Shown here piece after piece: positions 47,656-63,899 of a stretch of DNA of 64,000 bases. Made by a program: the position numbers and the translations under genes. How positions within the stretch are numbered: the stretch's first letter is position 1; the number at the start of each line of letters is the position of its first letter. Location of the stretch: assembly GCF_002218195.1 (NCBI RefSeq), contig NZ_CP022336.1, positions 2,103,001-2,167,000 of the forward strand, written 5' to 3'. Origin of the DNA: Sphingorhabdus sp. SMR4y. Lineage in GTDB: Bacteria > Pseudomonadota > Alphaproteobacteria > Sphingomonadales > Sphingomonadaceae. The notes under the pieces were generated by a model. It saw only the letters and a list, made by a program, of their open reading frames with translations. It made no database searches and was not told where the DNA came from.

Positions 47656-47800
47656 TCCATGGTCTTTTGCGGAAAGATGATGAAGATAGCGCTGCAAGAC
47701 AAATTATGGGCAGAACCGCCCGCCATCGACCTGAAAACACTAGAAATCCTTGCCAGAAAAAGGCGAACGCAGCAATGCCTGCAAATGAATGGAGAACGTC

Positions 47801-49797: not shown

Positions 49798-50973
49798 CTA
49801 TTGAGCGATGCCGTCGGCCTGCAGCGCGCTGATCTGTTCTGCGGTAAAGCCGAGTTCCTCCAATATCGAGGCGGTATCGGCCCCTTCGGCCTTCAGCGTA
49901 GCCGGAGCCGACAAACGTGCTCCGTTCATTTCGATCGGCAAGGCCGGCAGTCTGGTTTGTGTGCCGTCAGCCAAAGTCACCTCTTCGAGCCCGTCACTGG
50001 CTGTCAGATGCGGGTCATCGAACATGTCCTCCGGCCGTGCGATCGGAGCAAAGGGCAATCCCGTACCGTCGAGCAAGGCAATCAGATCATCCCGCCTGTA
50101 AGTCGCTATCAGTTCGCGAATCCGCGGCATGATCCGGTCGCGCGCCGCCACGCGATTGTTGTTTTCACGAATGTCTTCGTCGGCCCAGAGGTCGTCCAGC
50201 GCGAATAATTTGCAGAATTTCTCCCACAGTGCATCGGTGACGACCCCGATGAAAATCGGATCGTCCTTGGTCTGGAAAACGTCGTAAATGGCCCATGCAG
50301 AAATCCGGGCGGGCATTGGATCGGCGGCTTTGCCGGTAACCGCTTTCTGCGCCATATGCTGGCCGATCAGATAGACAGTCGTTTCGAACAGCGAACTCTG
50401 GACCTTCTGTCCCTTGCCGGTGCGATGCCGCTGTTCGACGGCCGCGAGAATGGCAATGACACCGAACATCCCGCCCGTCACATCAATAACGCTCGAACCA
50501 GCACGCAGGGGTTGGCCGGGAGGGCCGGTCATATAAGCCAGTCCCCCCATCATCTGCGCGACTTCGTCCAGCGCCGTACGATTTTCATAGGGACCAGGCA
50601 GAAATCCTTTTTCCGAGCAATAGATCAGCCGCTCGTTATTTTCCGCCAGCGCCTCATAGCCAAGACCCAGACGGTCCATCGCGCCGGGGCGGTAATTCTC
50701 GATCAGGATATCGGCATCGGCAGCCAGCTTTCGGGCAATAGCCAGCCCTTCCGGATCCTTGAGGTTGAGAGAAATGCTCTGCTTGTGCCGGTTATACATC
50801 GGGAAATAGCCCGATCCCGAGCCGACCAGGTTGCGCGTACGATCACCGCCGATTGGTTCCACCCGGATCACTTCCGCCCCCAGTGAGGCGAGAATCGCAC
50901 CGACCGCCGGGCCCATGACCATATGGGTAAATTCGATTACCTTGAGTCCTGCAAGGGGCGTAGTCTGGGTCAT
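49798..50973 (-). CDS. CaiB/BaiF-type (family III) CoA-transferase
   Basis: A 391-residue CoA-transferase. The family start LAGLKVIEFTHMVMGPAVG, GAEVIRVEPIGGDRTR and NRHKQSISLNLKDPEG are present. The catalytic aspartate is in SSVIDVTGGMFGVIAILAAV, and the second domain follows. It moves CoA to a carboxylic acid, usually a hydroxy or aromatic acid. It is the last gene of the minus arm and overlaps the HMG-CoA-lyase-like gene by 4 bases. Citramalate, malate-like or succinate substrates would fit the neighbours (inference). Confidence 0.93.
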   Translation of the reverse strand: MTQTTPLAGLKVIEFTHMVMGPAVGAILASLGAEVIRVEPIGGDRTRNLVGSGSGYFPMYNRHKQSISLNLKDPEGLAIARKLAADADILIENYRPGAMDRLGLGYEALAENNERLIYCSEKGFLPGPYENRTALDEVAQMMGGLAYMTGPPGQPLRAGSSVIDVTGGMFGVIAILAAVEQRHRTGKGQKVQSSLFETTVYLIGQHMAQKAVTGKAADPMPARISAWAIYDVFQTKDDPIFIGVVTDALWEKFCKLFALDDLWADEDIRENNNRVAARDRIMPRIRELIATYRRDDLIALLDGTGLPFAPIARPEDMFDDPHLTASDGLEEVTLADGTQTRLPALPIEMNGARLSAPATLKAEGADTASILEELGFTAEQISALQADGIAQ

Positions 50974-51902
50974 GCTGCTGCTTTCTGAAATCCAAGGGGG
51001 AGTCCGGCGTCAGGGGTGAAGCCGTACAGGGGTTCGCCGGGGAGCGCCTCGGCCACGATATCGCGGACCTTCAGAAGCTTCTCCAGATCGATTCCGGTAT
51101 CGATGCCCATCGCTTCCAGCATGAAAACAAGATCTTCGGTCACGATATTGCCCGAAGCGCCGGGCGCGAAGGGACATCCGCCGAGACCACCCAGCGAACT
51201 GTCAAAGGTGGTGATGCCTTCCGCAAGGCCCGCCATGACATTTGCAAGACCCAGTCCTCGCGTGTTGTGAAGGTGCAGCGTATTGAGCTTGTCCGCCCCG
51301 ATTGCCGCTTTCACCCTGCGCACCAGCCGCGTCACCTGCGCGGGATTGGCATAGCCGGTGGTGTCGGAAAGCCCGCATTCCGCAACCCCGGCTTCCATCG
51401 CGGCTTCGGCCAGGCGGGCAATCTGGTCATCCGGCACAGGCCCCTCCAGCGTACAACCGAAAGCGGTCGAGAGGCCGACCTCAAAATAGGGCCGCTGGCC
51501 CGCAGGCTGCTGGGCGACCAGATCGGCGATGGCCCGGATCTCGGCCAGCATTGCGGGATGATCCTTGCGAACATTGTTGATCGAATGGGTTTCCGACATG
51601 GAAAAGGGAATCGACATCTTGTCGACACCGCAGGCGATGGCCCGTTCGGCGCCCTTCACATTGGGAATGAGCGCGACCACCTCGAGACCGGGAATGGTCT
51701 TGGCAAAAGCGACGATCTCTGCCGTGTCAGCCATCTGCGGCAACAGGGCGGGCGGCACGAAGCTGCCGACCTCAATCTCGCTCACGCCCGCCTCGGCTTC
51801 GGCCTTTATCCAAGCCTTTTTCGCTTCGGTTGCCATCACACGATCGACGCTTTGCAGACCGTCGCGCGGCCCGACTTCGCTGATCGTCACGGATTTTGTC
51901 AT
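50970..51902 (-). CDS. HMG-CoA lyase-like enzyme
   Basis: A 310-residue member of the HMGL-like TIM-barrel family that cleaves CoA esters. The N-terminal EVGPRDGLQS holds the catalytic Arg and Asp and the metal residue. The metal motif is LHLHNTRGLGLANV, where HMG-CoA lyase has HxHDT. The catalytic cysteine loop is in GGLGGCPFAPGASGN. The changed motif suggests a different acyl-CoA substrate, for example a citramalyl- or malyl-CoA-like ester. It overlaps the CoA-transferase and LeuD-like genes by 4 bases each. Confidence 0.9.
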   Translation of the reverse strand: MTKSVTISEVGPRDGLQSVDRVMATEAKKAWIKAEAEAGVSEIEVGSFVPPALLPQMADTAEIVAFAKTIPGLEVVALIPNVKGAERAIACGVDKMSIPFSMSETHSINNVRKDHPAMLAEIRAIADLVAQQPAGQRPYFEVGLSTAFGCTLEGPVPDDQIARLAEAAMEAGVAECGLSDTTGYANPAQVTRLVRRVKAAIGADKLNTLHLHNTRGLGLANVMAGLAEGITTFDSSLGGLGGCPFAPGASGNIVTEDLVFMLEAMGIDTGIDLEKLLKVRDIVAEALPGEPLYGFTPDAGLPLGFQKAAA

Positions 51903-52516
51903 GTACTTGCTCCTAAATAAATCCACGGGCGCGCGGCGCGATCGGATTGCTGCCAGCGGGCAATATCATCGGCCATTTTCAGGCTGAGGTCGATGGCGTC
52001 CAGTCCGTCCAGCAGCATCGCCTTCGCTTCCCCGTCGATCGGGAAATCCCAGCTATGACCGCTCGCGCTCACGATATTCTGATCCTGCAGGTTGATGGTA
52101 ACCGGTGCACGGGACTGTTCGATCGTCGCTATCGCAGCGGCATCGAGAACCGCTGGCAGGATACCGTTGCGCACGCAATTGCCAGCGAAAATCGGCGCGA
52201 AGCTTTGGGCAATCACCGCGCGAAAGCCATATTCCGCTAGCGCCCACACCGCATGTTCCCGGCTGGATCCGGAACCGAAATTGGCACCGCCGAGAATGAT
52301 CTTGCTGTCGGCGTAGACCGGATCATTCATCACGAATGCAGGATTGGCCTCCCGTCCGCCAATCTCCTTGTAACGCCAGCCGGCAAACAGGCCATCGCTC
52401 AGTCCCGTCTTGCCGGTGCTCTTCATCTCACGGGACGGGATGATCTGGTCCGTATCGATGTTGTCGCGGATCAGTGGCATCGGCAACGAAGTCAGAGTAT
52501 CAAAGGGTTCCGCCAT
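51899..52516 (-). CDS. LeuD-type aconitase small subunit (hydratase)
   Basis: A 205-residue swivel domain of isopropylmalate/dimethylmaleate-type hydratases. The N-terminal RDNIDTDQIIPSREM and the substrate-specificity section ANFGSGSSREHAVWALAEYG are clear. The GNCVRNGILPA stretch follows. It pairs with the large subunit, whose stop overlaps its ATG by one base. No leuA or leuB is near, and the neighbours are a CoA-transferase and a lyase, so a catabolic hydratase (maleate, mesaconate or citraconate type) is more likely than leucine synthesis. Confidence 0.88.
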   Translation of the reverse strand: MAEPFDTLTSLPMPLIRDNIDTDQIIPSREMKSTGKTGLSDGLFAGWRYKEIGGREANPAFVMNDPVYADSKIILGGANFGSGSSREHAVWALAEYGFRAVIAQSFAPIFAGNCVRNGILPAVLDAAAIATIEQSRAPVTINLQDQNIVSASGHSWDFPIDGEAKAMLLDGLDAIDLSLKMADDIARWQQSDRAARPWIYLGAST

Positions 52517-53910
52517 CAGACTGCTTCGCTTTCCAACAAATCGCGGGGATCGGCAATCACACCGGCGATCGCGCTGGCAACCACCGTTTCCGGACTGGCG
52601 ATATGGGTCCGGACATTTGGTCCCTGCCGACTTTCAAAATTACGGTTGGTCGTCGAGATTACCCGTGAACCGGCGGCAAAACTTTCGCCCCCCGCGTAGA
52701 AACACATAGAACAGCCGCTCTCGCGCCATTCAAATCCGGCGTTTCTGAAAATTTCGTCGATCCCCTCGGCCTCGGCTTCGCGCTTGACGCGGGACGAGCC
52801 GGGCACGCAAATTGCCTTGATCCCGGCGGCCACCTTCCGTCCCCTGAGCAGAGCCGAAGCCCGGCGCAAATCGGACAGCCGGCTGTTCGTGCAACTGCCG
52901 ATGAATGCGGCGTCGATGGGTACACCCTCAATCGGCTGGTCCGGCGTCAGGCCGATATAGTCCAGCGGCGCTGACGGAGCGTCGTCCGGGACGCTATCAT
53001 CAATGCCGCAAGTCTGGCCCGGATTGGTGCCCCAGCTTACCATAGGTGTAATCGTGCCGGCATCAATCTCTATTTCCTGATCAAAAACGGCCCCGCCGTC
53101 GCTTGCCAGTTCACGCCAGTTTTCCACAGCCTGCTGCCATTCGGCACCAGCCGGCGCATAGCGGCGACCATTCAAATATTCGAAGGTCCTGTCATCCGGC
53201 GCGATGAAACCGGACATGGCGGAAAACTCTGTCGCCATGTTGCACAATGTCATCCGCCCCTCCATGTCCAGAGCCGACACTGCTTCTCCGGCAAATTCTA
53301 CCGCATGGCCCTTGCCGCCAGCCGCACCATATCGCGCCAGCAGCGTCAGGATCATGTCTTTCGGGGTAGTACCGGGGGATAGCCTGCCATTGAATGTGAC
53401 GCGCATACTCTTCGGCTTGGACAGGCGCAGGGTACCGGTTGCCATCGCATGCTCTGCTTCCGAAGATCCGATCCCCCAGGCCAGCGCGCCAAAAGCCCCT
53501 TGCGTACAGGTGTGGCTGTCGGGCGCGATGACTGTGGTACCGGGCAGGACGATACCGAGTTCCGGTGATATCACATGGACGATCCCCTGGTCGGGGTCAT
53601 TGACATCGAACAGCGTAATACCCGCTGCCCTGGCGGCGGCCCGAGTCTCGGTTATGAAGGCCTGGCCACCGGGCATCAGCGTCTGGTCGCTGCGGCCCGG
53701 CCGCGTGTCGACAATATGATCCGTAACCGCAAAAACCCGCGACGGATCTGCGACCTTGCGGCCTGCGTCAGCCAGCGAATTCAGTGCCGCGGCTCCTGTC
53801 CGCTCGTGCAGGAACACCCGGTCGATAGCTATGAGCACGCCGCCACCCGGCAGATCAGCCACCACGTGGCTGTGCCATAATTTGTCAAAAAGAGTCCGTG
53901 GATGTGTCAG
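52516..53910 (-). CDS. LeuC-type aconitase large subunit, probable CTG start
   Basis: A 464-residue [4Fe-4S] hydratase large subunit. The family N-terminus (PRTLFDKLWHSHVVADLPGG) begins only if translation starts at CTG 53910. The nearest ATG, GTG or TTG in this frame would either drop it (GTG 53865) or lie past an in-frame stop just upstream. The CTG overlaps the preceding stop as CTGA, in the same way as its ATGA neighbours. The iron-sulfur cysteines are in FIGSCTNSRL and SGCSMCFYAG, and the substrate part is AVTDHIVDTRPG. It forms a heterodimer with the LeuD-like subunit. A leucine role is unlikely in this setting. Confidence 0.85.
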   Translation of the reverse strand: MTHPRTLFDKLWHSHVVADLPGGGVLIAIDRVFLHERTGAAALNSLADAGRKVADPSRVFAVTDHIVDTRPGRSDQTLMPGGQAFITETRAAARAAGITLFDVNDPDQGIVHVISPELGIVLPGTTVIAPDSHTCTQGAFGALAWGIGSSEAEHAMATGTLRLSKPKSMRVTFNGRLSPGTTPKDMILTLLARYGAAGGKGHAVEFAGEAVSALDMEGRMTLCNMATEFSAMSGFIAPDDRTFEYLNGRRYAPAGAEWQQAVENWRELASDGGAVFDQEIEIDAGTITPMVSWGTNPGQTCGIDDSVPDDAPSAPLDYIGLTPDQPIEGVPIDAAFIGSCTNSRLSDLRRASALLRGRKVAAGIKAICVPGSSRVKREAEAEGIDEIFRNAGFEWRESGCSMCFYAGGESFAAGSRVISTTNRNFESRQGPNVRTHIASPETVVASAIAGVIADPRDLLESEAV

Positions 53911-54425
53911 ATGCTATTCCCCATTTCCTTGTCAACCGCGCGCCAGTCTTTCGTCACAAAAACCTCCTGTATCGCGGTACGCGTTTCCAGCTTACCATCC
54001 CGGATCCAGTGCCAGGTCCGGCAACGGTTCTGCCCGTCATCACTGATCTGGATTTGCTCGTATAGATAAAGCGAAGGATCGCCAGTGCGTTGCCAGTAAA
54101 GCATCACTGTGCGGTTATATTCATCGAGCGGAACTTCAGCAGCCCAGCCGACAATAAGATCGTTGTTCCACCAGATCCTGTTGTCCCGATATTCTGCGGG
54201 GAACTCCCGGATTTCGGTCTTTCCATCCGCCCATGTATAGTGGTTGGTCTGATGATAGGGTGCCTTGCGATCATCATCGGGGAAACGGCACAGCAAGCGC
54301 GATGCATGTTCGTCAATCTTTTCGTTCTGCGCATTGAAATAGGTATAGGTTCCATCCCAAACGCCCTCGTGACGCGCCAGCAGTGGCATATTTTCGCGAA
54401 TTCCCATCATATTTCCCTTCTTCAA
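53907..54425 (-). CDS. Lipocalin-like small protein, paralogue of the one at 59802
   Basis: A protein of up to 172 residues; the ATGs at 54425 and 54410 are both possible, and the latter begins MMGIREN. It looks like a small beta-barrel: MPLLARHEGVWDGTYTYF, FPDDDRKAPYHQTNHYTW, RIWWNNDLIVGWAAEV and RTWHWIRDGKLETRTAI. I am not certain of the Pfam name (perhaps a DUF3598/lipocalin-like group). It shares about half of its conserved positions with the 59802 protein of the plus arm. It is coupled on both sides, by the 4-base overlap with the hydrolase stop and by the CTGA junction with the LeuC-like gene. Confidence 0.78.
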   Translation of the reverse strand: MKKGNMMGIRENMPLLARHEGVWDGTYTYFNAQNEKIDEHASRLLCRFPDDDRKAPYHQTNHYTWADGKTEIREFPAEYRDNRIWWNNDLIVGWAAEVPLDEYNRTVMLYWQRTGDPSLYLYEQIQISDDGQNRCRTWHWIRDGKLETRTAIQEVFVTKDWRAVDKEMGNSI

Positions 54426-55798
54426 CTCGTCTGTTTCTTCTGTGATGCAATATGATATTCTCTGGCTGCCCGGGCATTGAGCAGTTCGAGATGGCGCTCG
54501 GCCAATATCTTGGGTGTCAGCTGGTCGGGATCAAATGATACGGCATGGGCTGCTGTCGCTTCATACCATGGCTCAAACATTTGCGCCGCCCGGACAATCT
54601 GCCATGCCTTCGTCAAATAGGTGCCGAAGCGGTCCGCCGAAAGATCGGGATAGAGCAGATCAGGGTCGCCGGCTGGCAGGGCCTCGTACCGGACAGTGTC
54701 GGTGCCCAAACGCGTTGCGCAGGCGGCGATGAAATTCGCCCAGCTGTCCCAGTCTGTGGGGGCCTGCCCCTGCCAGTCGTCCGACAGGCCGTGCCCGGCC
54801 AGATCGATGTACAAAGCATCATCTCCGGGGTGAACAGGCGCTGACCTGCCTGGTGCATGCAGAACCAATGTCGCCGCAGATCTGTTTCCCCGCCAGTGAA
54901 CCAGACCTGCAAATCCGTCCGATTGGACAGAAACGAAACCTTCGTCCGCCACCTCGTTCAAATGACTGGTCTCCGGCGTGGTTGTCTGTTGCAGATGCTC
55001 CAGACTGAGTCGCTGGTGATCATCCGGGGTGGCCACCTTGCGCGCAGTCCATGACGGCGGCATCTCGCCGAGCCTGTCGATATGTTCCTGAAGCGGGTCC
55101 CCGTCATAGGCGCTGATCAGGCAAGGCGGCACATCCGCATCCACCCCCGGTATATCCCGCGGCGCGCGCAGCACGGCACCATAACCGGCCTGATAGGCAT
55201 TGCCGGCATCCAGCATTTCCCGAACCACAGCATCCACCCTTTGCGGATCGGCATGAGCCACCGACAGCCGATGCTTGTCGTCTGTTGCAAACCAGGGAAA
55301 GAACCAGCTCTGTTCCAATATCCGGTTCCACAACCAGGCCAGATGCTCCCCATATTTCGACGGATGAAATTCGGGGAGATATTGTTCGCTAAACAGCTGC
55401 ATCTCTTCCGGCGTCCAGATGGCATAGCCGCCGATCGCCAACGCCGTGAAATGATTCGCGTGGCGCTTGACCGCCGTAACCAGAATGATCCCGCCGCTAT
55501 GAAAACCATAAGCCGCGCATTTTCTGACGCCCAGCGCGTCGAGAAATTCGATCAGCGCGTCGGCATATTCATTTATTTCCGGCGCCCCCGGCAATGGGTC
55601 CGACTGCCCGAAGCCCGGCGTATCGGGGGCGATACAGGTAAAATATTGCCCCCATTTGCGCATCAGCGGCTCATATTCCTTCGAACTGCGCGGGCTCTGG
55701 TGCACCATCAGCAAAACCGGCCCACTACCCGACAAGCGATAATGGACGCGGCGTTTATTGCCGTTGGACTCGACGTCGATAAAATGGCGTGTAATCAT
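54422..55798 (-). CDS. Tandem alpha/beta-hydrolase
   Basis: A 458-residue protein. The first 270 residues are an alpha/beta hydrolase with the oxyanion HQSPRSSKEY, strand CIAPDTPGFGQSD and nucleophile elbow YGFHSGGIIL, an uncommon form. The later residues 300-458 look like a second, degenerate hydrolase copy: TLVLHAPGRSAPVHPGDDAL, then LYIDLAGHGLSDDW. ATG 55798 has AGGG before it. It is the first gene of the minus arm, divergent from the amidase gene by 86 bases. It may open an ester, lactone or N-acyl bond; the substrate is unknown. Confidence 0.85.
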   Translation of the reverse strand: MITRHFIDVESNGNKRRVHYRLSGSGPVLLMVHQSPRSSKEYEPLMRKWGQYFTCIAPDTPGFGQSDPLPGAPEINEYADALIEFLDALGVRKCAAYGFHSGGIILVTAVKRHANHFTALAIGGYAIWTPEEMQLFSEQYLPEFHPSKYGEHLAWLWNRILEQSWFFPWFATDDKHRLSVAHADPQRVDAVVREMLDAGNAYQAGYGAVLRAPRDIPGVDADVPPCLISAYDGDPLQEHIDRLGEMPPSWTARKVATPDDHQRLSLEHLQQTTTPETSHLNEVADEGFVSVQSDGFAGLVHWRGNRSAATLVLHAPGRSAPVHPGDDALYIDLAGHGLSDDWQGQAPTDWDSWANFIAACATRLGTDTVRYEALPAGDPDLLYPDLSADRFGTYLTKAWQIVRAAQMFEPWYEATAAHAVSFDPDQLTPKILAERHLELLNARAAREYHIASQKKQTS

Positions 55799-55806
55799 AG
55801 ACCCTA

Positions 55807-55822
55807 ATTTGTCCGGACAAAT
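55807..55822. promoter_or_regulatory. Perfect 16-bp palindrome in the divergent promoter region
   Basis: ATTTGTCCGGACAAAT reads identically on both strands. It lies in the 86 bases between the start codons of the two arms (55798 on minus and 55885 on plus), 9 bases from the minus start. It fits an operator of a dimeric repressor such as a GntR (FCD) or TetR protein. No regulator gene lies within the cluster. Confidence 0.65.
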
Positions 55823-55884
55823 ATGTCTCGACAAGCTTTTTCTTGTGATTAAGATGCTTTAATCGAATCCGGAGTACAAAACTT

Positions 55885-56565
55885 ATGACGCTTATTGGTA
55901 CCAAAATGGTGGAAGATGGCCGCACAGCGAGAGAAATCTTTGACCAGCTGATTGGTAATCCTGCCCGCAAAAAATTTGGCTTTGGCGAGAAGCTGGCGAT
56001 CGTCAACGTCGATGTACAGCAAGCCTATACGCGTACCGACATGTTCAAGACCGCCTATGAGACCGATCCCAGACAGATTGACTATATCAACCAGATTTCC
56101 AGCCTGGCCCGGGAAAAGGATATGCCGGTGGTCTGGAGCCAGGTCGCCTACAAGGATGACGCAGGTGATGCCGGTGTCTGGGGCACGCGTACGGATACCG
56201 AAGATTCGCTTCAGAATATCAAATATGGCAGCGAGCGACACAAGCTTGATCCGCGCTGCGAAGTCGGCGCCAATGATCTGCAATATACCAAGCGGATGCC
56301 GAGCGCCTTTTTTGAAACCCAGCTGGCGAGCTATCTGGTCTGGCACAAGGTCGATACGGTTGTGGTCACCGGCGGCTCCACCTCTGGTTGCGTCCGGGCG
56401 ACTGCGGTCGACGCGCTCAGCCATGGCTATCGCACGATAGTCCCGATCGAAACCAGCGCCGACAAGCACGAAAGCTACCATTTTGCCAATCTGACGGATT
56501 TGCAGATCAAATATGCCGATGTCGAACCGGTGCAGACGGTGATCGACTGGCTGGAAGCACGATGA
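55885..56565 (+). CDS. Isochorismatase-family amidohydrolase (N-carbamoylsarcosine-amidase/maleamate-amidase-like)
   Basis: A 226-residue cysteine hydrolase. The catalytic triad is visible: Asp43 (VNVDVQQAY), Lys136 (YTKRMPSAFF) and Cys169 (GGSTSGCVRATAVDA). The pattern GCVRATAVDA is like N-carbamoylsarcosine amidase and maleamate amidohydrolase. It releases ammonia from an amide. It is the first gene of the plus arm and overlaps the next gene by 4 bases. In this setting an amide or half-amide derived from ring opening is the expected substrate (inference). Confidence 0.92.
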   Translation: MTLIGTKMVEDGRTAREIFDQLIGNPARKKFGFGEKLAIVNVDVQQAYTRTDMFKTAYETDPRQIDYINQISSLAREKDMPVVWSQVAYKDDAGDAGVWGTRTDTEDSLQNIKYGSERHKLDPRCEVGANDLQYTKRMPSAFFETQLASYLVWHKVDTVVVTGGSTSGCVRATAVDALSHGYRTIVPIETSADKHESYHFANLTDLQIKYADVEPVQTVIDWLEAR

Positions 56566-57449
56566 TGGGCGAGATGCAAAAAGCCGACCCTGGCCTCTAT
56601 GATTATCTTCCTTACCGAAACCGGCCAAAGATAGAATGGCCCGATGGCAAGACCTGCGCTGTCTGGGTGGCTCCCAATCTGGAGTTTTACGAGCTTGATC
56701 CGGCGGTCAATCCGCATCGCAAAAGCTGGGCAAAGCCGCATCCCGATGTGGTCGGCTATTCCCATCGGGATCATGCCAACCGCGTCTCGCACTGGCGCAT
56801 GGCCGAGATGATGACCAAGCACGGTTTTCCCGGATCGGTAAGCCTGTCGGTCGCGCTATGCGATCATATCCCCGAAGTCGTCGAAGATGCCAGCCAGCGC
56901 GGCTGGGAGTTTTTCAGCCACGGCATCTATAACACGCGGTACAGCTACGGGATGGATGAGGCACAGGAACGCGCGATCATAGAAGACAGCATCGAAACCG
57001 TGGAACGCGCCACGGGTCAGCGGATCCGCGGCTGGCTGGCACCGGCCCTCACCCACACACCCCGCACGCTTGATCTGATCGCCGAATATGGCCTCGATTA
57101 TACTTGCGATCTCTATCATGATGACCAGCCGACCGATGTTAAGGTCAAATCGGGAAAGCTGACCGCCATTCCCTATAGCCTCGAGGTCAACGATCATTAT
57201 GGCTTTTTCATCTACAATATGTCACCGCGCGAATATGCCGACACTTTGATCCGGCAATATGACCGGCTGGCCGAAGAGGGCGAAATGTCCGGGACGGTCA
57301 TGTGCATTCCCCTGCACAGCTATCTGATCGGACAGCCTCATCGCATCGGCGCATTTGAGGCGGTACTCGAACATATTGCCGGCGATGGCCGGGCGTGGGT
57401 CACGAAAGCCGGCGACATCGTCGACCGTTTCCGGGAGCAAACAGCATGA
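56562..57449 (+). CDS. PuuE/allantoinase-like polysaccharide-deacetylase-fold hydrolase 1
   Basis: A 295-residue NodB-fold protein. The metal-binding DDG motif is replaced by APNLEFYELD. SHGIYNTRYSYG and GWLAPALTHTPRTLDLIAE come next, and the later DLYHDDQPTDVKVKSGKL is the allantoinase (PuuE) type. This suggests that it hydrolyses a C-N bond in a cyclic amide or ureide rather than sugar acetyl groups. ATG 56562 overlaps the amidase stop; the second ATG at 56565 is next to it. The next gene is a related hydrolase, so the pair may form a heteromer or act on successive steps. Confidence 0.87.
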   Translation: MMGEMQKADPGLYDYLPYRNRPKIEWPDGKTCAVWVAPNLEFYELDPAVNPHRKSWAKPHPDVVGYSHRDHANRVSHWRMAEMMTKHGFPGSVSLSVALCDHIPEVVEDASQRGWEFFSHGIYNTRYSYGMDEAQERAIIEDSIETVERATGQRIRGWLAPALTHTPRTLDLIAEYGLDYTCDLYHDDQPTDVKVKSGKLTAIPYSLEVNDHYGFFIYNMSPREYADTLIRQYDRLAEEGEMSGTVMCIPLHSYLIGQPHRIGAFEAVLEHIAGDGRAWVTKAGDIVDRFREQTA

Positions 57450-58369
57450 GCCTCGACCCGAGCTATCTCGAATATCCCAAACGTGGCCGCGGGATGGACC
57501 ATGATTATTATCCCTATTCGAACTTCTTCGAGCGCCCGCCACTGCAATGGCCAGATGCGAAGAAGCTGCTGATCTGGCCGGTTGTCAGCCTCGAATATTT
57601 CCCGATGATCCCGGGCGATGATCCGTTTCGCGCGCCCGGACATATGCAAACCGCTTATCCCGATTATCGGCACTATACGGCCCGGGAATATGGCACCCGA
57701 ATAGGCATTTACCGATTGCTTGGTGCGTTTGAGAAAGTCGGTGCGAAAATTTCAGTCGCGACCAACGGCATGATCGCCGAACGCTATCCCGAGTTGATCG
57801 CTGACATTCTGGCAGGCGGGCACGAAATTATCGCGCATAGCACCGACATGAACGGTACTATTGCCAGCGGAATGGCCGAGGCCGACGAAAAGGCGCTGAT
57901 CACGACGGCCCTGGACATGCTGGAAAAAGCTACCGGCACGCGGCCGCACGGCTGGCTCTCGATTGCCAGATCGCAGAGCTTCAGCACGGCGAAATTGCTG
58001 GCCGATGCAGGTGTCAGCTATATGTGCGACTGGGCAAACGACGAACTGCCCTATGCGTTTCAGACGCAGGCGGGCACGCTCACCAATCTGCCGCTCAACC
58101 ATGAACTGTCGGATCGCCAGATTATCAACGTCCAGCAGCAGTCCGTTGACAGCTACGCGGAACAGATGACCAACGCCGCCGACTGGCTGATCGGCGAAGC
58201 CGACAAATTCGGCGGGCGGATGATGCCGATGCATCTGACACCCTATATCATGGGCCTGCCCTATCGCATCGCCGCATTCGAAAAGCTGATCGCCGGTTTT
58301 GCCGCCCGCGCGGACATCGGCTTTGCCACCGGCGAGTCCATTGTCGATAATTGGCGCAGGCAGCAATGA
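57446..58369 (+). CDS. PuuE/allantoinase-like polysaccharide-deacetylase-fold hydrolase 2
   Basis: A 307-residue relative of the preceding gene. The first motif is VVSLEYFPMI, the histidine motif is AHSTDMNGTIASG, and the later CDWANDELPYAFQTQAGTLT with PLNHELSD is of PuuE type. The two proteins differ in the histidine motif (HG against HS), so they may have different substrates. It is linked to its neighbours on both sides by 4-base ATGA overlaps. Confidence 0.86.
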   Translation: MSLDPSYLEYPKRGRGMDHDYYPYSNFFERPPLQWPDAKKLLIWPVVSLEYFPMIPGDDPFRAPGHMQTAYPDYRHYTAREYGTRIGIYRLLGAFEKVGAKISVATNGMIAERYPELIADILAGGHEIIAHSTDMNGTIASGMAEADEKALITTALDMLEKATGTRPHGWLSIARSQSFSTAKLLADAGVSYMCDWANDELPYAFQTQAGTLTNLPLNHELSDRQIINVQQQSVDSYAEQMTNAADWLIGEADKFGGRMMPMHLTPYIMGLPYRIAAFEKLIAGFAARADIGFATGESIVDNWRRQQ

Positions 58370-59805
58370 AGGTCCGCAACCCTCGTACCGGTGAAACGGA
58401 CTACGAGTTCACGCCCGTGGATGGAGCGGGTGTGGCTGCTGCCGCGCACCGGCTGCGGCGCCATCAGCCAGCATGGGCCGCCATGCCCGTTTCCCAGCGC
58501 AGTGCGATCCTTCTGCGCTGGGCCGACGCTATTGAAAAACACGCCGGCGCTATCATCCAGCAACTGACCATCGACACCGGAAGAGCGGGCATCGCCGCCA
58601 TCGAGGTGGGCGGCGTACCGGGCACAATCCGGCGCTGGGCCGAAATAGCGCCAGAGATCATCGCCCGCCACTCGCCCACGGATATACCGTCAGCCAATCC
58701 GACCGTCGTCAACACTACCCGCCTGGTGCCCTTTCCACTGTTCGGCGCGATTGCCCCGTGGAATTTTCCGATGACCCTCAGCACCATAGATGCGATCCCG
58801 GCATTATTCGCCGGCTGCGCCGCGTTGATCAAGCCTTCCGAGATAACACCGCGATTTGTCGAACCGCTGCGGGCGAGTATCGCCGAGGTCCCGGAACTGG
58901 CGCACGTGCTGGAGATTGTCGTCGGCGACGCCGCTACCGGACAGGCGCTGGTCGCCAATGTCGACTATGTCTGCTTCACCGGGTCAGTAGCGACCGGCCG
59001 CAAGGTTGCCATCGCTGCAGCAGAGGCGTTCATTCCTGCCAATCTGGAGCTGGGCGGCAAGGACCCTATGATCATATTGGCTAGTGCCGATCCGGTCGAA
59101 GCTGCAAAAACGGCGCTCAGGGCCAGCATTCTTGCTACCGGCCAAGCGTGCCAGTCGATTGAGCGGCTCTATGTCGCGCGTCCGATCTACGACAAGTTCC
59201 TGGAAACTCTGGTCGACGAGGCAGAGCGGGTACGGCTCAATTATCCTGATATTCATCAGGGCGAGATCGGGCCGTTCATCTTTGCGCCACAAGGTGAGAA
59301 AATAGCCGAGCAGATAGCCGAGGCCCGCGAAAAAGGTGCGCGCGTTCTGGCTGGAGGGACCGTCGAAATATTGGGCGGTGGTACCTATTTGCGTCCCACG
59401 GTGATCGCTGATGTTAGAGCGGATATGGCGATCATTCGCGACGAAAGCTTCGGACCCGTGCTGCCGGTCATCCCCTTTGACGCGGTAGAAGATGCCATCG
59501 CGCAGGCCAATGACAGTATCTACGGCCTCTCCGCAGCAGTTCTGGCTGGTAACGCAGAGGAAGCGGAAGCCGTCGGCAGGCAGCTGGAAGCTGGCGCAAT
59601 TTCCATCAATGACGGCTCGATGACCGCCATGGTCTGGGACGCGGAAAATTCGAGCTTCAAAATGTCGGGCATGGGGCCGTCCCGCATGGGCGAGAGCGGG
59701 CTCACCCGGTTTTTCCGCAAGCAGGCGCTTATTCGCCAAACCGCCAGTCCGGCGCGCATTCAGGATTTTGCCGAAGAGAATTTTGCCGGTGCTGATCGCC
59801 CATGA
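58366..59805 (+). CDS. Aldehyde dehydrogenase
   Basis: A 479-residue NAD(P)-dependent aldehyde dehydrogenase with all key residues. Asn133 is in IAPWNFP and Lys156 in LIKPSE, the general base Glu228 in ANLELGGKDP, and the catalytic Cys262 in GQACQSIERL. The end has the GxxxSxxGxxG-like part SGMGPSRMGESG. It oxidises an aldehyde or semialdehyde to an acid. It is coupled on both sides by 4-base overlaps. The ATG at 58366 was chosen over 58351, which lies inside the previous gene. Confidence 0.95.
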   Translation: MKVRNPRTGETDYEFTPVDGAGVAAAAHRLRRHQPAWAAMPVSQRSAILLRWADAIEKHAGAIIQQLTIDTGRAGIAAIEVGGVPGTIRRWAEIAPEIIARHSPTDIPSANPTVVNTTRLVPFPLFGAIAPWNFPMTLSTIDAIPALFAGCAALIKPSEITPRFVEPLRASIAEVPELAHVLEIVVGDAATGQALVANVDYVCFTGSVATGRKVAIAAAEAFIPANLELGGKDPMIILASADPVEAAKTALRASILATGQACQSIERLYVARPIYDKFLETLVDEAERVRLNYPDIHQGEIGPFIFAPQGEKIAEQIAEAREKGARVLAGGTVEILGGGTYLRPTVIADVRADMAIIRDESFGPVLPVIPFDAVEDAIAQANDSIYGLSAAVLAGNAEEAEAVGRQLEAGAISINDGSMTAMVWDAENSSFKMSGMGPSRMGESGLTRFFRKQALIRQTASPARIQDFAEENFAGADRP

Positions 59806-60257
59806 CCGGGTGGCGGGCCTTGATGGCGGAGAATATGCCGAATATGCTGGCGCATGAAGGCCGCTGGGATGGTATCTATCGCCATCAGGACAGTGAAGGG
59901 AACGTGCTCGACCAACATCGCACGCTTACCCGCTGCGAATTTCCCGACAGCGGCAAATATGCCTATATTCAGCATAATGACCTGATCTGGGCGGATGGCC
60001 GTACCGAGTCTTTCAAATTCGGCGGGATATACAAGAGAGGCCGGATCTATTGGGAAACCGACCGCTTTGCCGGCTATGGCTGGGAGAGCGATGGCCTGAT
60101 ATTATTGCGACTTGATCGGAAAGATGCACCAGGCGAACGCTATACCGAAATGATCGAAATCTCCGGTGACGGACATTCAAGAGCACGGACCTGGCAATGG
60201 TTCCGCGACGACACACCCTATCGACGGACTTTATGTGACGAAAAACGAATAACATAG
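59802..60257 (+). CDS. Lipocalin-like small protein, paralogue of the one at 53907
   Basis: A 151-residue protein with the same frame of conserved motifs as the minus-arm paralogue: MPNMLAHEGRWDGIYR, DLIWADGRTESFKFGG, RIYWETDRFAGYGWE, and ARTWQWFRDDTPYRRT. It has no signal peptide. The beta-rich composition suggests a small-molecule-binding barrel. It overlaps the aldehyde dehydrogenase stop by 4 bases and precedes the methyltransferase by 11 bases. A family name is not certain. Confidence 0.8.
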   Translation: MTGWRALMAENMPNMLAHEGRWDGIYRHQDSEGNVLDQHRTLTRCEFPDSGKYAYIQHNDLIWADGRTESFKFGGIYKRGRIYWETDRFAGYGWESDGLILLRLDRKDAPGERYTEMIEISGDGHSRARTWQWFRDDTPYRRTLCDEKRIT

Positions 60258-60268
60258 GAGCAAGACCA

Positions 60269-61453
60269 ATGGGCGTTGAACTGCAGCATCCGATGAAACC
60301 GGAACTGAAACCCGACGAGGCAGCGCGAGGGCGCTTTGTATCCGGTATCCGGTCGTTCATTCTCAATGATCTCGCAGGGGATTTGAGAACCGCCTATGAC
60401 AAACGGGCTGCGCCGGCATTTGCGCGCGAGGCCGGCCGCGCTCCGGAAACCAGCAACGAGGCCCATAAGGCCCTGCGTGGCGATGCTGCCTTCAACATCT
60501 ATTCTGCGATGCGGGTGCAAGCGCAAAAAATGGTCTGGAACGCAGCCGGATCGGTCGTTGAACGCGATATCGAGCGCATGGAGGCCGAGGCCGCAAAAGT
60601 CGAGAACGCTGCTGGCTCGGTAACGCTCAATCCCGATCTTGATATCCCCCGCAACGTGGACGGGATCGAAGTGCACCTTATGCCGGGGAGCTATACAAGG
60701 GGCGGGGAATCCCTGGAAGCGGGCGCCGTCTATGACCAGGGGCTAGCCGTCTTTTCCATGGGCCTGATGGGTGCCAATCTGGACGATATCGGCCAGTCGA
60801 TGGCGGCTTATGTTTCCGGCAAATTCCCCACCTTCACACCCGAACGCATCCTGGATACCGGCTGCACCATCGGTCACAATACCCTGCCGTGGAAACAGAC
60901 CTATCCTGCAGCCCATGTCGAGGCCATTGATGCGGCGGCTGGCGGACTTCGCTATGCTTCGGCGCGCGCCAAGATGCAGGGGCAGGAAATCCATTTCAAG
61001 CAGATGTCTGCCGAGGCGCTGGACTATGACGACGAGAGCTTCGATCTGGTTTTCTCGTCCATGTTCCTGCACGAGCTTTCGCGGAAGGCACGGGCCGCCG
61101 CTTTCAAGGAAGCCTATCGGGTGCTCAAACCCGGTGGCCTGCTGCTGCACATGGAATTACCGCCGAACGGCCAGATGAATGCCTTTGACGGATTCTATCT
61201 CGACTGGGACAGTTGGTATAACAACGAACCTTTTTACAAGGGCTTCCGTGATGAGGACCCGAAACAGCTCTGTGAGAAAGGGGGCTTCGATCCGGACAAT
61301 TATTTCCAGTTCGTCGTTCCCAGCATCGGCGTCTACGGAGCCGATGCGGTCACCGATGCCATCGCAAATGAAGCCGCCAATGCGGTGGACAGCGAGACGA
61401 CGGGAAGGCTTGCCGAAGGCATTATGTGGTTCGGTTTCGGAGCCTGGAAATGA
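60269..61453 (+). CDS. Class I SAM-dependent methyltransferase
   Basis: A 394-residue protein. The last half (about 190-370) is a Rossmann methyltransferase with motif I LDTGCTIGHNTLPW, acidic VEAIDAA, LDYDDESFDLVFSSMFLHEL and YRVLKPGGLLLHMELP. About 190 N-terminal residues form a helical section of unknown role. The order of motifs fits a small-molecule methylase of the Methyltransf_11 group. AGGAG precedes the ATG. It overlaps the next small gene by 4 bases. Confidence 0.9.
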   Translation: MGVELQHPMKPELKPDEAARGRFVSGIRSFILNDLAGDLRTAYDKRAAPAFAREAGRAPETSNEAHKALRGDAAFNIYSAMRVQAQKMVWNAAGSVVERDIERMEAEAAKVENAAGSVTLNPDLDIPRNVDGIEVHLMPGSYTRGGESLEAGAVYDQGLAVFSMGLMGANLDDIGQSMAAYVSGKFPTFTPERILDTGCTIGHNTLPWKQTYPAAHVEAIDAAAGGLRYASARAKMQGQEIHFKQMSAEALDYDDESFDLVFSSMFLHELSRKARAAAFKEAYRVLKPGGLLLHMELPPNGQMNAFDGFYLDWDSWYNNEPFYKGFRDEDPKQLCEKGGFDPDNYFQFVVPSIGVYGADAVTDAIANEAANAVDSETTGRLAEGIMWFGFGAWK

Positions 61454-61707
61454 CAATGACAGAAGCGGCATTCAAACCCGATGACACGCCAAAGGAAATC
61501 TATGGTCCCGATGGCAAACCGAAATTTTTCGACGATCCTGGCATGGACCGCTTTGTCGCGGTCATCATGAACATGGCACAGGAAATGTGGGTTCAGGAAG
61601 AACGTCTCATGACACTGGAAGGTCGCGAGGCAAATCCGGAGGACCGGGAAGCCAAGATGAAAATATTCATAGACCGTATTTTTGCACCGCTACGCGAAGG
61701 AGCTTGA
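61450..61707 (+). CDS. Small protein of unknown function, coupled to the methyltransferase
   Basis: An 85-residue acidic helical protein (MDRFVAVIMNMAQEMWVQEE in the middle), with no signal peptide and no cysteine. It is coupled by ATGA to the methyltransferase, which suggests a subunit or stabilising partner. It is not assigned to a named family. It ends 3 bases before the MDR oxidoreductase gene. Confidence 0.8.
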   Translation: MTMTEAAFKPDDTPKEIYGPDGKPKFFDDPGMDRFVAVIMNMAQEMWVQEERLMTLEGREANPEDREAKMKIFIDRIFAPLREGA

Positions 61708-61710
61708 TAG

Positions 61711-62748
61711 ATGAAAGTTTGGGAAATCGGTGCACGCACCGGCATTGACGGTCTGCGCATGACGGAGCGTGATCAACCAACAGCCGGGGCTGGCGAACTG
61801 CTGGTCAAGGTGACCGCGAGCGGTCTCAATTTCCGTGACCTGATGGTCCTGAGCGGCAATTACGGCGAGAATCTTCCCGAAGGCCGCATTCCCCTGTCCG
61901 ACGGCGTCGGAGTGGTCGAAGCCATTGGCGAAGGCGTGGCCGGCTTTGCGGTTGGCGACCGGGTCACGGCGCCGCATTTTCTTAACTGGCTCGATGGCCC
62001 CTATAATTTCGGAATATTCGGAACCGATCTCGGCGTCACCGCCGATGGCTGGCTGGCTGAAAAAATCACGCTACCTGCCAGTGCCGCTATCGTCCTGCCC
62101 GATGCAGTCGACGACCAGACCGCCGCCTCGCTGTCGGTTGTCGCCGGTACCGTATGGCATGCCATGGTCGCGTTCGGCGCCGTCAAGCCCGGCGAGCTGG
62201 TACTGGCGCAAGGGACCGGCGGCGTTTCTATCTTTGCCCTGCAGTTGGCGAAAGCCCTGGGTGCGGACTTTGCCATCAGCTCGTCCAGCGACGATAAGCT
62301 GGCGCGCGCGCAAGAGATGGGCGCGGACTATGTCGTCAATTATCGTGATCGACCAGATTGGGCCTCGGCGCTGCTGGAAAAAACCGGCGGTCGCGGCGCA
62401 GATGTCGTCGTTGACACGCTTGGTTTTCCGGCACTTGGCGAAACAGTGGCGGCAACAGCGGTCAACGGACGGATTGGCACTTTGGGCGCGCTATCGGGCT
62501 CACCGCAGGCAACAGCCAGTGCCAGCCAGGGCGCAATCATCGGCAAGAATATAACGATCAAGGGCATTGCGTCGGGAAGCCGTGCCATGACGGCCGACGC
62601 CATTGCTGTTGTCGCCGAACATGGCATCAGCAATCCCGTCGACAAGCAATTTTCATTTGCCGACGCTCCGGCGGCTTACCGGTATCTGGAAAGCGGATCC
62701 CATTTTGGGAAAATCCTTATCCGCCCGGATGAAATGCCGGTGTCCTAG
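61711..62748 (+). CDS. MDR-family NAD(P)-dependent alcohol dehydrogenase/quinone oxidoreductase
   Basis: A 345-residue medium-chain dehydrogenase. The GroES-like part has ASGLNFRDLMVLSGNYG and PLSDGVGVVEAIGEGVAGFAVGDRV. The nucleotide part has AQGTGGVSIFALQLAKALGA, and the end is YLESGSHFGKILI. The usual zinc-ligand Cys/His cluster is not evident, so this is the non-zinc quinone-oxidoreductase-like class. It reduces an enone or oxidises an alcohol in the pathway. It converges on the monooxygenase gene with overlapping stop codons. Confidence 0.92.
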   Translation: MKVWEIGARTGIDGLRMTERDQPTAGAGELLVKVTASGLNFRDLMVLSGNYGENLPEGRIPLSDGVGVVEAIGEGVAGFAVGDRVTAPHFLNWLDGPYNFGIFGTDLGVTADGWLAEKITLPASAAIVLPDAVDDQTAASLSVVAGTVWHAMVAFGAVKPGELVLAQGTGGVSIFALQLAKALGADFAISSSSDDKLARAQEMGADYVVNYRDRPDWASALLEKTGGRGADVVVDTLGFPALGETVAATAVNGRIGTLGALSGSPQATASASQGAIIGKNITIKGIASGSRAMTADAIAVVAEHGISNPVDKQFSFADAPAAYRYLESGSHFGKILIRPDEMPVS

Positions 62749-63899
62749 AGCGGCGCAGCGACCGGATTGAACGCCATCATGGCCATATTGTTCATCGGCG
62801 CCGATGCCGGCTTGAACTGGTCCGGATTTATCGCCTGCGTCACTTGTCCCTGAACGAGGGACGCGGCATGGACCTGTTCGGTACGGGGTTGCCGTGCGGC
62901 TTCATAGCGAGCCAGCGCCTGGTCGGTATCGGGTTCCTGAGTCAGGGCCTTGGCCAGAATGAAGCCGTCCTCGATAGCCATGGCTGCCCCCATACCCAGA
63001 AAGGGCAGCATGGCATGTGCTGCATCGCCCAGTAATACCGCTCGGCCGCGCGACCAGCTGGCGAGCGGCTTGCGGTCATAAAGACCCCATTTGATGATGT
63101 TCGACGCATGGCCAATCAGCCCCACGACATCGTCATGCCAGCCTGCAAATGCCTGTGCCAGTTCACTTTGCGTGGCACCGATCGACCAGCCTTCCGGCAC
63201 GGGCTCTCTTGTTTCCACTATTCCGGCGCAATTTACGACTTCCCCGTTGCACATGGTATAACGGTTGAAGGTTCGCTGCGGACCGATGAAAATGGCGCTG
63301 CGTCCCAGATCCATATATGGGCTGGCCTGCTCCATCGGCACCAGAAAACGATAGGCAATATGTTCGGTGAACCGCGGTTCGTCCCCGGGCCGAAGCATCG
63401 CGCGCACCGCCGACCGGACCCCGTCTGCCCCCACCAGCAAGTCCCCTGCAGCCGTATCGCCATTGGCAAATTTCGCTAAGACCTGATTGCCCTCGTCTGT
63501 AAATTCGACCAGCTTGTGGCCGGTAAAGATCCGACCGCCGAGACTTTCCAGAGCGTCAATCAACACCTGCTGCAAATCAGCGCGATAGATGTGGCGGACA
63601 ATATCGGCCTCTCCGTCATCAGCCCGCCCGTCGCCCGGGTCAAAATCCCCCATCAGCAGACGGGCGTTCCGGTAATGCAGGAACGGAAGCACGCCGGCCG
63701 GACAGGCTTTCGCGGCCACCGCACCCTGCAAGCCAAGCGCGCGAAAAACATGCTGGGCTCCGAGACCAAGAGTCAACCCCGCTCCCGTTTCCTCAAGCCT
63801 GCCGGCCGCTTCGTGGACCTCGACATCCATCCCGCGCTTGCGCAGTGCAATCGCCGCCGTCAGTCCGCCCAGCCCGGCCCCGATGATTAATATGTTCAA
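62745..63899 (-). CDS. FAD-dependent aromatic-ring monooxygenase (salicylate/6-hydroxynicotinate type)
   Basis: A 384-residue class A flavoprotein hydroxylase. It has the FAD motif IIGAGLGGLTAAIALRKRG, the DG motif GADGVRSAVRAML, and the GD motif GRAVLLGDAAHAMLPFLGMGAAMAIED. It has the usual length. Members hydroxylate phenolic or pyridine rings. It is on the minus strand, 16 bases downstream of a gene that continues off the window, and its stop overlaps that of the MDR gene. It is likely to belong to the same catabolic locus, possibly as the first ring step. Confidence 0.92.
   Translation of the reverse strand: MNILIIGAGLGGLTAAIALRKRGMDVEVHEAAGRLEETGAGLTLGLGAQHVFRALGLQGAVAAKACPAGVLPFLHYRNARLLMGDFDPGDGRADDGEADIVRHIYRADLQQVLIDALESLGGRIFTGHKLVEFTDEGNQVLAKFANGDTAAGDLLVGADGVRSAVRAMLRPGDEPRFTEHIAYRFLVPMEQASPYMDLGRSAIFIGPQRTFNRYTMCNGEVVNCAGIVETREPVPEGWSIGATQSELAQAFAGWHDDVVGLIGHASNIIKWGLYDRKPLASWSRGRAVLLGDAAHAMLPFLGMGAAMAIEDGFILAKALTQEPDTDQALARYEAARQPRTEQVHAASLVQGQVTQAINPDQFKPASAPMNNMAMMAFNPVAAPL

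Follow-up and report, generated by a model that had tools for sequence, protein, structure and literature searches.

Introduction

Several described routes draw on the enzyme families considered here. Nicotinate fermentation uses a dimethylmaleate hydratase and a dimethylmalate lyase. The bacterial maleamate pathway comprises NicD and NicF, and HbzIJ is a LeuCD-type maleate hydratase. We analyzed a stretch of 64,000 nucleotides from Sphingorhabdus sp. SMR4y (the window), whose genome is a single contig of 3,479,724 bases. Fifteen genes at 49798-63899 of the window are arranged in two divergent arms, with a core in which CaiB, HMGL, LeuD, LeuC, LipM, and ABH on the minus strand face ICH, PuuE1, PuuE2, and ALDH on the plus strand. 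As in nicotinate fermentation, a LeuCD-type hydratase would act on a substituted maleate before a C–C cleavage. Unlike in nicotinate fermentation, a coenzyme A (CoA) transferase and a lyase of the 3-hydroxy-3-methylglutaryl-CoA (HMG-CoA) lyase type replace the free-acid lyase, and a lyase of the phosphoenolpyruvate (PEP) mutase/isocitrate lyase (ICL) family is located in a second cluster. The maleamate pathway and the locus have in common an isochorismatase-family half-amidase and a LeuCD-type hydratase. However, the locus has a PuuE pair, and neither a ring-cleaving dioxygenase nor a maleate isomerase was recognized among the cluster genes scanned, which are not all of them.

Two further systems resemble parts of the locus. 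The nicotinate pathway of Aspergillus nidulans includes the PuuE-related cyclic imidase HxnM, followed by the amidase HxnN (PMC9304392). As proposed here, an imide is opened by a PuuE-related cyclic imidase, and an amidase frees ammonia from the half-amide. The pathway differs in being fungal and in involving a six-membered ring and a saturated hydroxy diacid, and the available portions of the paper do not name LeuCD, CaiB, or HMGL steps. An itaconate cluster with methylsuccinate enzymes from Cupriavidus and Pseudomonas encodes, in the available portions of its description, a CoA transferase, a hydratase, a citramalyl-CoA lyase, an acyl-CoA dehydrogenase, and MmgE/PrpD (PMC12290011). The same families occur to the right of the window. 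That region, however, scores under the RipB and RipC cut-offs, has two CaiB and two PrpD proteins, and lies within an N-heterocycle-like unit.

The window genes are one end of a supercluster of ~50 kb (genome about 2,152,800-2,203,000), which is a real, conserved, and apparently jointly controlled catabolic unit, larger than first noted. With moderate confidence, we read it as a regulon for N-heterocycle breakdown in a Parasphingorhabdus-type sphingomonad, in which the opening of a cyclic imide would be followed by branched-acid catabolism. The enzyme families are known; as far as our literature search reached, their combination appears to be undescribed. The open-licence literature on maleimide, imidase, DUF3598, dimethylmaleate, bilin, and PuuE topics yielded no recognized paper on the cluster, an absence that carries little weight.

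Gene order and its conservation

A sequence-only reading of the window had listed the 15 genes, and gene calls and Pfam searches recover every one of them, on the strands and in the order given. The starts of the arms are 86 bases apart, as claimed, the divergent gap being 55799-55884. The frequent 4-base overlaps are also real: they account for 7 of the 12 same-strand junctions in the cluster, but for only 1 of the 31 junctions in window 1-49700 (p = 1.7e-4, Fisher test), as counted on our own gene calls. In contrast, the cluster end at 63899 was placed too early, because the cluster runs roughly 36-39 kb past the window. Pfam bears out the gene names in general; the exceptions are the two lipocalin-like proteins, with a weak match or none, and ABH, which is recognized N-terminally only.

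The pathway idea had been made to depend on the gene order not being found only here. This refutation fails, as the core order is shared by tens of loci from many genera, mostly sphingomonads. A LipM profile search of GTDB gave 191 relatives, of which the best 80 loci were kept; genes were counted at a threshold of at least 45% identity in flanks of at most 10 kb, some of them cut by contig ends. Besides sphingomonads, the 80 loci include some metagenome bins named to class or phylum and one Rhodospirillaceae; outside are Steroidobacter agaridevorans and Peristeroidobacter. ABH is present in 78 loci, ICH in 69, LeuC in 68, LeuD in 67, HMGL in 66, CaiB in 65, ALDH and PuuE1 in 62 each, and PuuE2 in 61. 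The conserved core is ICH-PuuE1-PuuE2-ALDH on one arm and ABH-LipM-LeuC-LeuD-HMGL-CaiB on the other. Other genes are present less often (h242 in 47, MT2 in 45, LipP in 31, MDR in 28, MT1 in 22, and FMO in 8). A caution applies to FMO, MDR, MT1, and LipP, which appear to be accessory: their positions are near the flank ends, and some may have been missed. With the same caution, ring hydroxylation by the FAD monooxygenase, previously put forward as a core step, is not supported by the presence of FMO in 8 of 80 loci. In addition, several same-genus loci (e.g., L062 and L064) carry MDR followed directly by h242, free of FMO.

Stretches from nine genomes were examined, and six of them (G006, G009, G014, G016, G025, and, from another genus, G035) keep the order of both arms, with ~55-98% identity of the genes present there. 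In G006 and G014, FMO is not at the window-equivalent place, and the cluster has a relative of LipP at another position. G035 is missing LipP, MT1, p85, MDR, and FMO at that place. A culturable relative, Parasphingorhabdus marina DSM 22363, has the left part of the unit (L072). The stretches taken from G003, G027, and G037 lack the two arms, but G027 has the cluster elsewhere (locus L068). Locus L040 of G003 contains LipM without both arms in the stretch taken, yet has the palindromes described below near LipM, h264, and h256, which suggests that the unit is reduced or split there. The genes to the left of CaiB in L034 and L036 differ, as judged by eye, from those of the window.

A shared palindrome and a likely regulator

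The divergent gap contains a perfect operator-like palindrome, ATTTGTCCGGACAAAT (55807-55822), as a putative site with the core TTGTCCGGACAA at 55809-55820. The exact 12-base core occurs once in the window and in 0 of 100 shuffles, whereas 21 of 100 shuffles match when up to three mismatches are allowed. Exactly seven copies of the core are found in the 3.48 Mb genome (about 0.2 expected), all of them at 2,158,809-2,202,930, within the supercluster. They are positioned at ABH/ICH, h242/membrane protein, MFS-FADox-Nit-MT2, TonB1/membrane protein, DUF1838/HpcH, DUF1330 operon/TonB2, and h264. By our gene calls, six of the seven are intergenic and the seventh is inside a membrane-protein gene. 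The start of this gene is probably overextended, because the corresponding site falls between genes in L036, L038, L039, and L043 (though inside again in L034). With one mismatch allowed, the genome has 20 sites, whereas the reversed control gives 6. Sites with a single mismatch are found at the start of the GntR gene and near TonB2, and 11 others are elsewhere in the genome.

The exact core is present in 53 of 58 homologous ABH/ICH gaps as called and in 56 of 58 with margins, and L092 and L093 are one base off. The 80 GTDB loci contain 109 exact sites in 1.5 Mb, distributed over 73 loci, and 129 of the 140 sites in all loci looked at are intergenic. Three or more sites are present in 19 of 23 PuuE1-positive genomes, compared with 1 of 26 others (49 genomes in all). 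The 26 others comprise 22 genomes in which PuuE1 was looked for and not found, six of them with MaoC, and four genomes of the same genus known only to lack a LipP match. The exception among the 26 is G007, with four sites, and three further genomes have a single site. For six other PuuE1-positive genomes with full site listing, 35 of 36 sites are within 50 kb of PuuE1.

The supercluster includes a gene for a GntR protein with PF00392 and PF07702 (UTRA) domains, for which HutC is the top NCBIfam model, under its cut-off. Judged by its domains and the shared palindrome, the arrangement corresponds to a HutC-type GntR regulon. Because the seven sites all lie in the supercluster near gene starts and the GntR gene lies inside, the supercluster looks like one regulon. 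The HutC-type GntR gene likely encodes the regulator, which probably acts through the TTGTCCGGACAA operators, a protein–palindrome pairing that we infer.

Co-occurrence across the family

We compared 298 genomes of the window's family, its own genome included, with thresholds of E <= 1e-60 for PuuE1 and E <= 1e-120 for MT2; kinship was not corrected for. PuuE1 is found in 56 genomes, MaoC in 54, and MT2 in 46. PuuE1 and MT2 occur together in 45 genomes (odds ratio (OR) 986) and PuuE1 and MaoC in 38; MT2 and MaoC accompany PuuE1 in 38 of its 56 genomes. The members of the 45 PuuE1/MT2 pairs are at most 40 kb apart in 30 genomes, on the same contig at 0.4-1.0 Mb in 4, and on other contigs in 11. 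A catechol dioxygenase domain, taken as a control, is found in 12 of the 56 PuuE1 genomes, compared with 23 of the 242 others (OR 2.6; kinship ignored). MT5, a methyltransferase of another cluster that was also meant as a control, is likewise nested, with 17 of 19 occurrences in PuuE1 genomes (OR 52), indicating that the link with PuuE1 is not specific to MT2. The nesting of MT5 is consistent with a common parent compound as well as with a common lifestyle.

Enzymes of the minus arm

CaiB (49798-50973, minus strand; PF02515, 2.8e-107) is a family III CoA-transferase. Its top NCBIfam model is succinate--glutarate CoA-transferase, at 237.9 bits and under the cut-off of 750.

HMGL (50970-51902, minus strand; PF00682) is an HMG-CoA-lyase-like retro-aldol lyase, and its start at 51902 is preferable to a far-upstream GTG. 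It scores 278.9 bits with PRK05692, above the cut-off of 246, and residues R13-D14, H210, H212, C243, and N252 are conserved (alignment of 65; loci matches with at least 50% identity). The corresponding motifs RD, HxH, and GGCP...ASGN presumably hold the catalytic and metal-binding residues. Score and conserved residues place HMGL, at the level of sequence, in the HMG-CoA lyase family. The solved chains closest to it are HMG-CoA lyases, and its structure matches include both HMG-CoA lyase and isopropylmalate synthase. HMGL and isopropylmalate synthase have a common fold. A second HMGL copy in the genome, 38% identical, speaks against HMGL as the sole enzyme of leucine catabolism.

LeuD (51899-52516, minus strand; PF00694), the small subunit of a LeuCD-like hydratase, passes PRK01641 and TIGR00171 (165.4 bits, cut-off 116.25). 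The large subunit LeuC (52516-53910, minus strand; PF00330, 7.4e-149) passes PRK12466. It stays under the TIGR00170 LeuC equivalog cut-off (510.2 vs 560.25 bits) when scored from GTG 53865, without its probable first 15 residues. The frame is open upstream of this GTG, with an in-frame TLFDKLWHSHVV, and reaches CTG 53910, where it has a 4-base overlap with the stop of LipM. LeuC therefore probably starts at the non-standard CTG at 53910, 15 codons upstream of the first ATG/GTG/TTG. The cluster cysteines, which we take to be the [4Fe-4S] site, are conserved (alignment of 68; loci matches with at least 50% identity). Two further LeuC-type copies elsewhere in the genome, each 48% identical, speak against LeuC and LeuD as the only, housekeeping leucine genes.

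LipM (53907-54410, minus strand) is a lipocalin/calycin-like, DUF3598-like barrel protein. By sequence, the DUF3598_N match is borderline (22.6 bits, cut-off 22); by fold, LipM matches the DUF3598 protein 2o62 with E 2.8e-6. The AlphaFold2 model is a barrel with a predicted local distance difference test score (pLDDT) of 93.8. Its top Foldseek matches in the PDB are BFA1, 2o62, Ycf58 (3bdr), the phycobiliprotein lyase CpeS (4tq2), Rv2717c, and OssO, with query template modeling scores of about 0.58-0.67. On this model, LipM is a calycin, which may be either a binder or an enzyme.

ABH (54422-55798, minus strand; PF00561/PF12146) is an alpha/beta-hydrolase with an extra C-terminal half. It had been described as a tandem alpha/beta-hydrolase. 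The fold is seen at the N-terminus (residues about 27-193 of 458), but the remainder has no Pfam hydrolase match.

Enzymes of the plus arm

ICH (55885-56565, plus strand; PF00857) is an isochorismatase-family, N-carbamoylsarcosine amidase-like hydrolase. Residues D43, K136, and C169, which we take to be the Asp-Lys-Cys triad, are conserved in at least 98% of 64 aligned sequences (ICH of the window plus loci matches with at least 50% identity), consistent with an amidase of this family. The nearest solved chains are the N-carbamoylsarcosine amidohydrolase 26st, as the best, and the isochorismatase-family hydrolase 4l07.

PuuE1 (56562-57449, plus strand; PF01522) and PuuE2 (57446-58369, plus strand; PF01522) are PuuE-like hydrolases of the polysaccharide-deacetylase family. 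They score 112.1 and 93.9 bits, respectively, with the PuuE allantoinase model TIGR03212, under the cut-off of 424.6, and the solved relatives of PuuE1 include the PuuE allantoinase 3cl6. Their resemblance to cyclic imide hydrolases of the CIH/HxnM type is limited to the family fold and one distant match, to 3qbu; an activity on imides is a prediction. In the available portions of the report on HxnM, 3qbu is its closest structural homologue (PMC9304392).

ALDH (58366-59805, plus strand; PF00171, 4.9e-109) is an aldehyde dehydrogenase nearest to succinate-semialdehyde types and scores 360.6 bits with PRK09407, under the cut-off of 521. LipP (59802-60257, plus strand), the second lipocalin-like protein, is a paralogue of LipM (39% identity in alignment) and matches no Pfam family at E <= 0.001. 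MDR (61711-62748, plus strand; PF00107, PF08240) is a zinc-type medium-chain oxidoreductase. The accessory FMO (62745-63899, minus strand; PF01494) is a FAD_binding_3 monooxygenase, with 3-hydroxybenzoate 6-monooxygenase as the top NCBIfam model, under its cut-off.

A repeated methyltransferase module

The sequence-only reading saw no place for the methyltransferase and the small proteins, a view that the wider comparison does not uphold. MT1 (60269-61453, plus strand; PF13649) is a class I S-adenosylmethionine-dependent methyltransferase. Its AlphaFold2 model (pLDDT 81.3) has a helical N-terminal extension, and its Foldseek matches are class I methyltransferases. The small partner p85 (61450-61707, plus strand) adjoins MT1 with a 4-base overlap and has no Pfam match at E <= 0.001. 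The pair is a repeated module. Besides MT1 and MT2, methyltransferase paralogues are found at four other genomic sites, two of them identical, and each paralogue is adjoined by a related small gene. MT2, the second copy, co-occurs with PuuE1 in 45 of the 46 sampled genomes that have it. On plasmid pJE1, a methyltransferase and small-protein pair lies near a gene annotated as coding for the REDY-like protein HapK and near HyuA/HyuB-type genes.

A stretch of 2,851 bases is duplicated exactly (L032:10356-13206 and L031; genome about 812.9 kb and 2,667.7 kb). It includes a DUF1838-like gene together with a methyltransferase and the small partner of the latter. In L033 (genome about 2,630,000-2,650,000), such a pair lies beside HyuA-like, DUF917-like, and AllA-like genes, named by eye from sequence.

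The supercluster to the right of the window

The right part of the supercluster (L028 and L029) begins with h242, a membrane protein, MT2 with a 120-residue partner, a nitrilase-fold protein, a FAD_binding_4 oxidase, an MFS transporter, and a TonB receptor. The middle encodes a second membrane protein, DUF1838, an HpcH lyase, a MaoC hydratase, an acyl-CoA dehydrogenase, two CaiB proteins, the GntR-UTRA regulator, and two MmgE/PrpD proteins. The last stretch encodes a PaaK-like ligase, an amidase, a HapK-like small protein, an SDR protein, a third PuuE-like protein, an enoyl-CoA hydratase, glyoxalases, MFS, MDR, and a second TonB receptor. Names rest on family scans, except that MFS, TonB, MDR, and the second PrpD were named by similarity to pJE1 proteins and the third PuuE by similarity to PuuE1. 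G016 and G006 show the same order, and G035 retains it with losses. The MaoC protein scores 242.3 bits with RipB/Ich (cut-off 340) and the HpcH protein 231.3 bits with RipC/Ccl (cut-off 375); both models stay under their cut-offs and are nonetheless the top NCBIfam models.

In the nitrilase-fold protein (L028:4061-5215, minus strand), which is conserved, the usual catalytic Cys and Lys positions, as we presume them to be, appear as Ser and Arg (IASEEILYPE and RYRRL; alignment of 21, by eye). The HapK-like small protein (L029:3539-3859, plus strand) has RedY-like 2jdj as its sole PDB match at E <= 1 (E 6.7e-6) and is 56% identical to the pJE1 protein annotated as HapK. Immediately to the left of the cluster, a beta-lactamase-fold protein (PF00144) is encoded at 47789-49054 of the window (plus strand); before it come genes for a disulphide oxidoreductase and for a protein with a flavodoxin fold.

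A second cluster in the same genome

A second N-heterocycle-like cluster (L032 and L050; genome about 2,658,000-2,693,000) contains paralogues of LeuC, LeuD, ICH, FADox, MT, and DUF1838, as well as of ABH (52% identity), PuuE (about 30%), FMO (36%), and MFS (54%). It also encodes HyuA/HyuB (by similarity to pJE1 proteins), an NtaA-type monooxygenase, an arylmalonate-decarboxylase-like protein, and a lyase of the PEP-mutase/ICL family. The first three solved relatives of this lyase are, in order, 4iqd, a petal death protein, and 2,3-dimethylmalate lyase. The same kit is thus repeated with a different lyase, which supports the step at a substituted malate proposed below. A whole-genome search for the core found zero exact palindromes in the second cluster.

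Proposed pathway

C–N hydrolysis, hydration, CoA transfer, and cleavage, as suggested by the sequence-only reading, are consistent with the family assignments and the conserved residues, which point to the following candidate route. The compound would be imported by the TonB-dependent receptors and MFS transporters. PuuE1, PuuE2, or both would open a substituted five-membered cyclic imide of the maleimide type, and ICH would hydrolyze the half-amide to a substituted maleate and ammonia. LeuCD would then hydrate the substituted maleate to a tertiary 2-alkylmalate. LeuCD proper forms such a tertiary 2-alkylmalate by hydration of isopropylmaleate. CaiB would transfer CoA onto the 2-alkylmalate, and HMGL would split the malyl-CoA into a 2-oxo acid and an acyl-CoA. 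The route would thus be the start of leucine biosynthesis in reverse, from alkylmaleate through 2-alkylmalate and malyl-CoA to 2-oxo acid and acyl-CoA. ABH and LipM may act upstream, and ALDH may oxidize an aldehyde side product. The HpcH, MaoC, acyl-CoA dehydrogenase, two CaiB, and two MmgE/PrpD proteins of the right part would process a branched diacid, either saturated or of the mesaconyl type, in the manner of the itaconate/methylsuccinate cluster.

Discussion

Several observations weigh against cyclic imide opening and branched-acid catabolism within one regulon. As PuuE itself is an allantoinase, the substrate may instead be a hydantoin or a ureide. PuuE1, PuuE2, CaiB, ALDH, and the RipB/RipC-like proteins are well under the curated cut-offs of the named enzymes, and the lyase of the second cluster is nearest to methylisocitrate lyase in NCBIfam, under the cut-off. 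Of the 80 loci, 12 lack LeuC, and 9 of these 12, some on short contigs, combine a glyoxalase-like gene with ABH-LipM without LeuCD-HMGL-CaiB, 5 of the 9 with ICH; a simple linear pathway fails to explain them. In 11 of its 56 genomes, PuuE1 is accompanied by neither MT2 nor MaoC; four of these 11 (G347, G112, G129, and G296) were checked, and all four are free of the palindrome. PuuE1 and MaoC are not within 40 kb of each other in 15 of 37 genomes with both located, some of them on separate draft contigs. Finally, G127 has 36 scattered copies of TTGTCCGGACAA, whereas the 18 other PuuE1-positive genomes that have sites carry 3-10 each.

Among the alternatives, a route of the pyridine/nicotinate type is unlikely, though it accounts for several families. 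ABH would deformylate an N-formylmaleamate analogue like NicD, ICH would deaminate like NicF, and LeuCD would hydrate maleate in place of an isomerization. We take ABH and ICH to share folds with NicD and NicF, 4l07 is among the nearest solved relatives of ICH, and FMO belongs to the FAD_binding_3 family. However, FMO is found in few loci, the two conserved PuuE genes are left without a role, and no NicX-type ring-cleaving (2,5-dihydroxypyridine) dioxygenase was found among the supercluster genes scanned, which were not all of its genes, nor was the genome searched for one.

Slightly less probable still is a hydantoin, ureide, or pyrimidine route, in which PuuE1 and PuuE2 would open a hydantoin-like ring and ICH would remove an N-carbamoyl group. 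It agrees with allantoinase as the nearest curated model of PuuE1 and PuuE2, with N-carbamoylsarcosine amidohydrolase as the best solved relative of ICH, and with another methyltransferase locus of the genome that lies beside hydantoinase-like genes (named by eye). It gives no role, however, to LeuCD, CaiB, and HMGL, which are as widespread across the loci as PuuE1 and PuuE2.

We consider it improbable that the locus is a loose catabolic island, whose arms serve different substrates and are mere neighbors. The modules are indeed separate in some genomes, and LipP, MT1, MDR, and FMO are variable. Against this, gene starts throughout the 50 kb share a single operator-like site, whose exact form is absent from the rest of the genome, and MT2 and PuuE1 co-occur even when they are far apart. 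A uric acid/purine route can be set aside, as FMO is weakly HpxO-like and as rare across the loci as noted above (8 of 80).

The reading as an imide-opening regulon may be extended to a natural substrate. Maleimides and haematinic acid have been reported from leaves and lake sediments in the available portions of one study (PMC7318184), which indicates that such substrates exist. A highly speculative extension is the mineralization of breakdown products of tetrapyrroles (chlorophyll, haem, or bilin), in which fragments would be taken up through TonB receptors and bound by the calycins with a bilin-lyase-like fold. The PuuE-ICH-LeuCD-CaiB-HMGL arm would take unsaturated rings as methyl-alkyl maleimides, the itaconate/methylsuccinate-like part would take reduced rings as alkyl succinates, and parallel clusters would serve other side chains. 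We rejected tetrapyrroles as the main explanation on several grounds. The LipM fold also occurs in BFA1, OssO, and Rv2717c, which are not known to bind bilins, and the match of the HapK/RedY-like protein is distant (E 6.7e-6). PuuE1 is modestly associated with reaction-centre genes (21 of 56 vs 33 of 242 genomes, OR 3.8, beside the OR of 2.6 for catechol dioxygenase; kinship ignored). In addition, reaction-centre genes have no match in the window's own genome, and no macrocycle-opening enzyme was recognized among the genes looked at.

The unit, as marked by PuuE1 in 56 of 298 genomes of the family, points to a common environmental compound whose breakdown route is apparently unassigned in the literature searched. 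If this compound is of the maleimide or pyrrole type, the regulon would open up the poorly known microbial end of pigment recycling, and it would also give a role to the unexplained methyltransferase and small-protein module.

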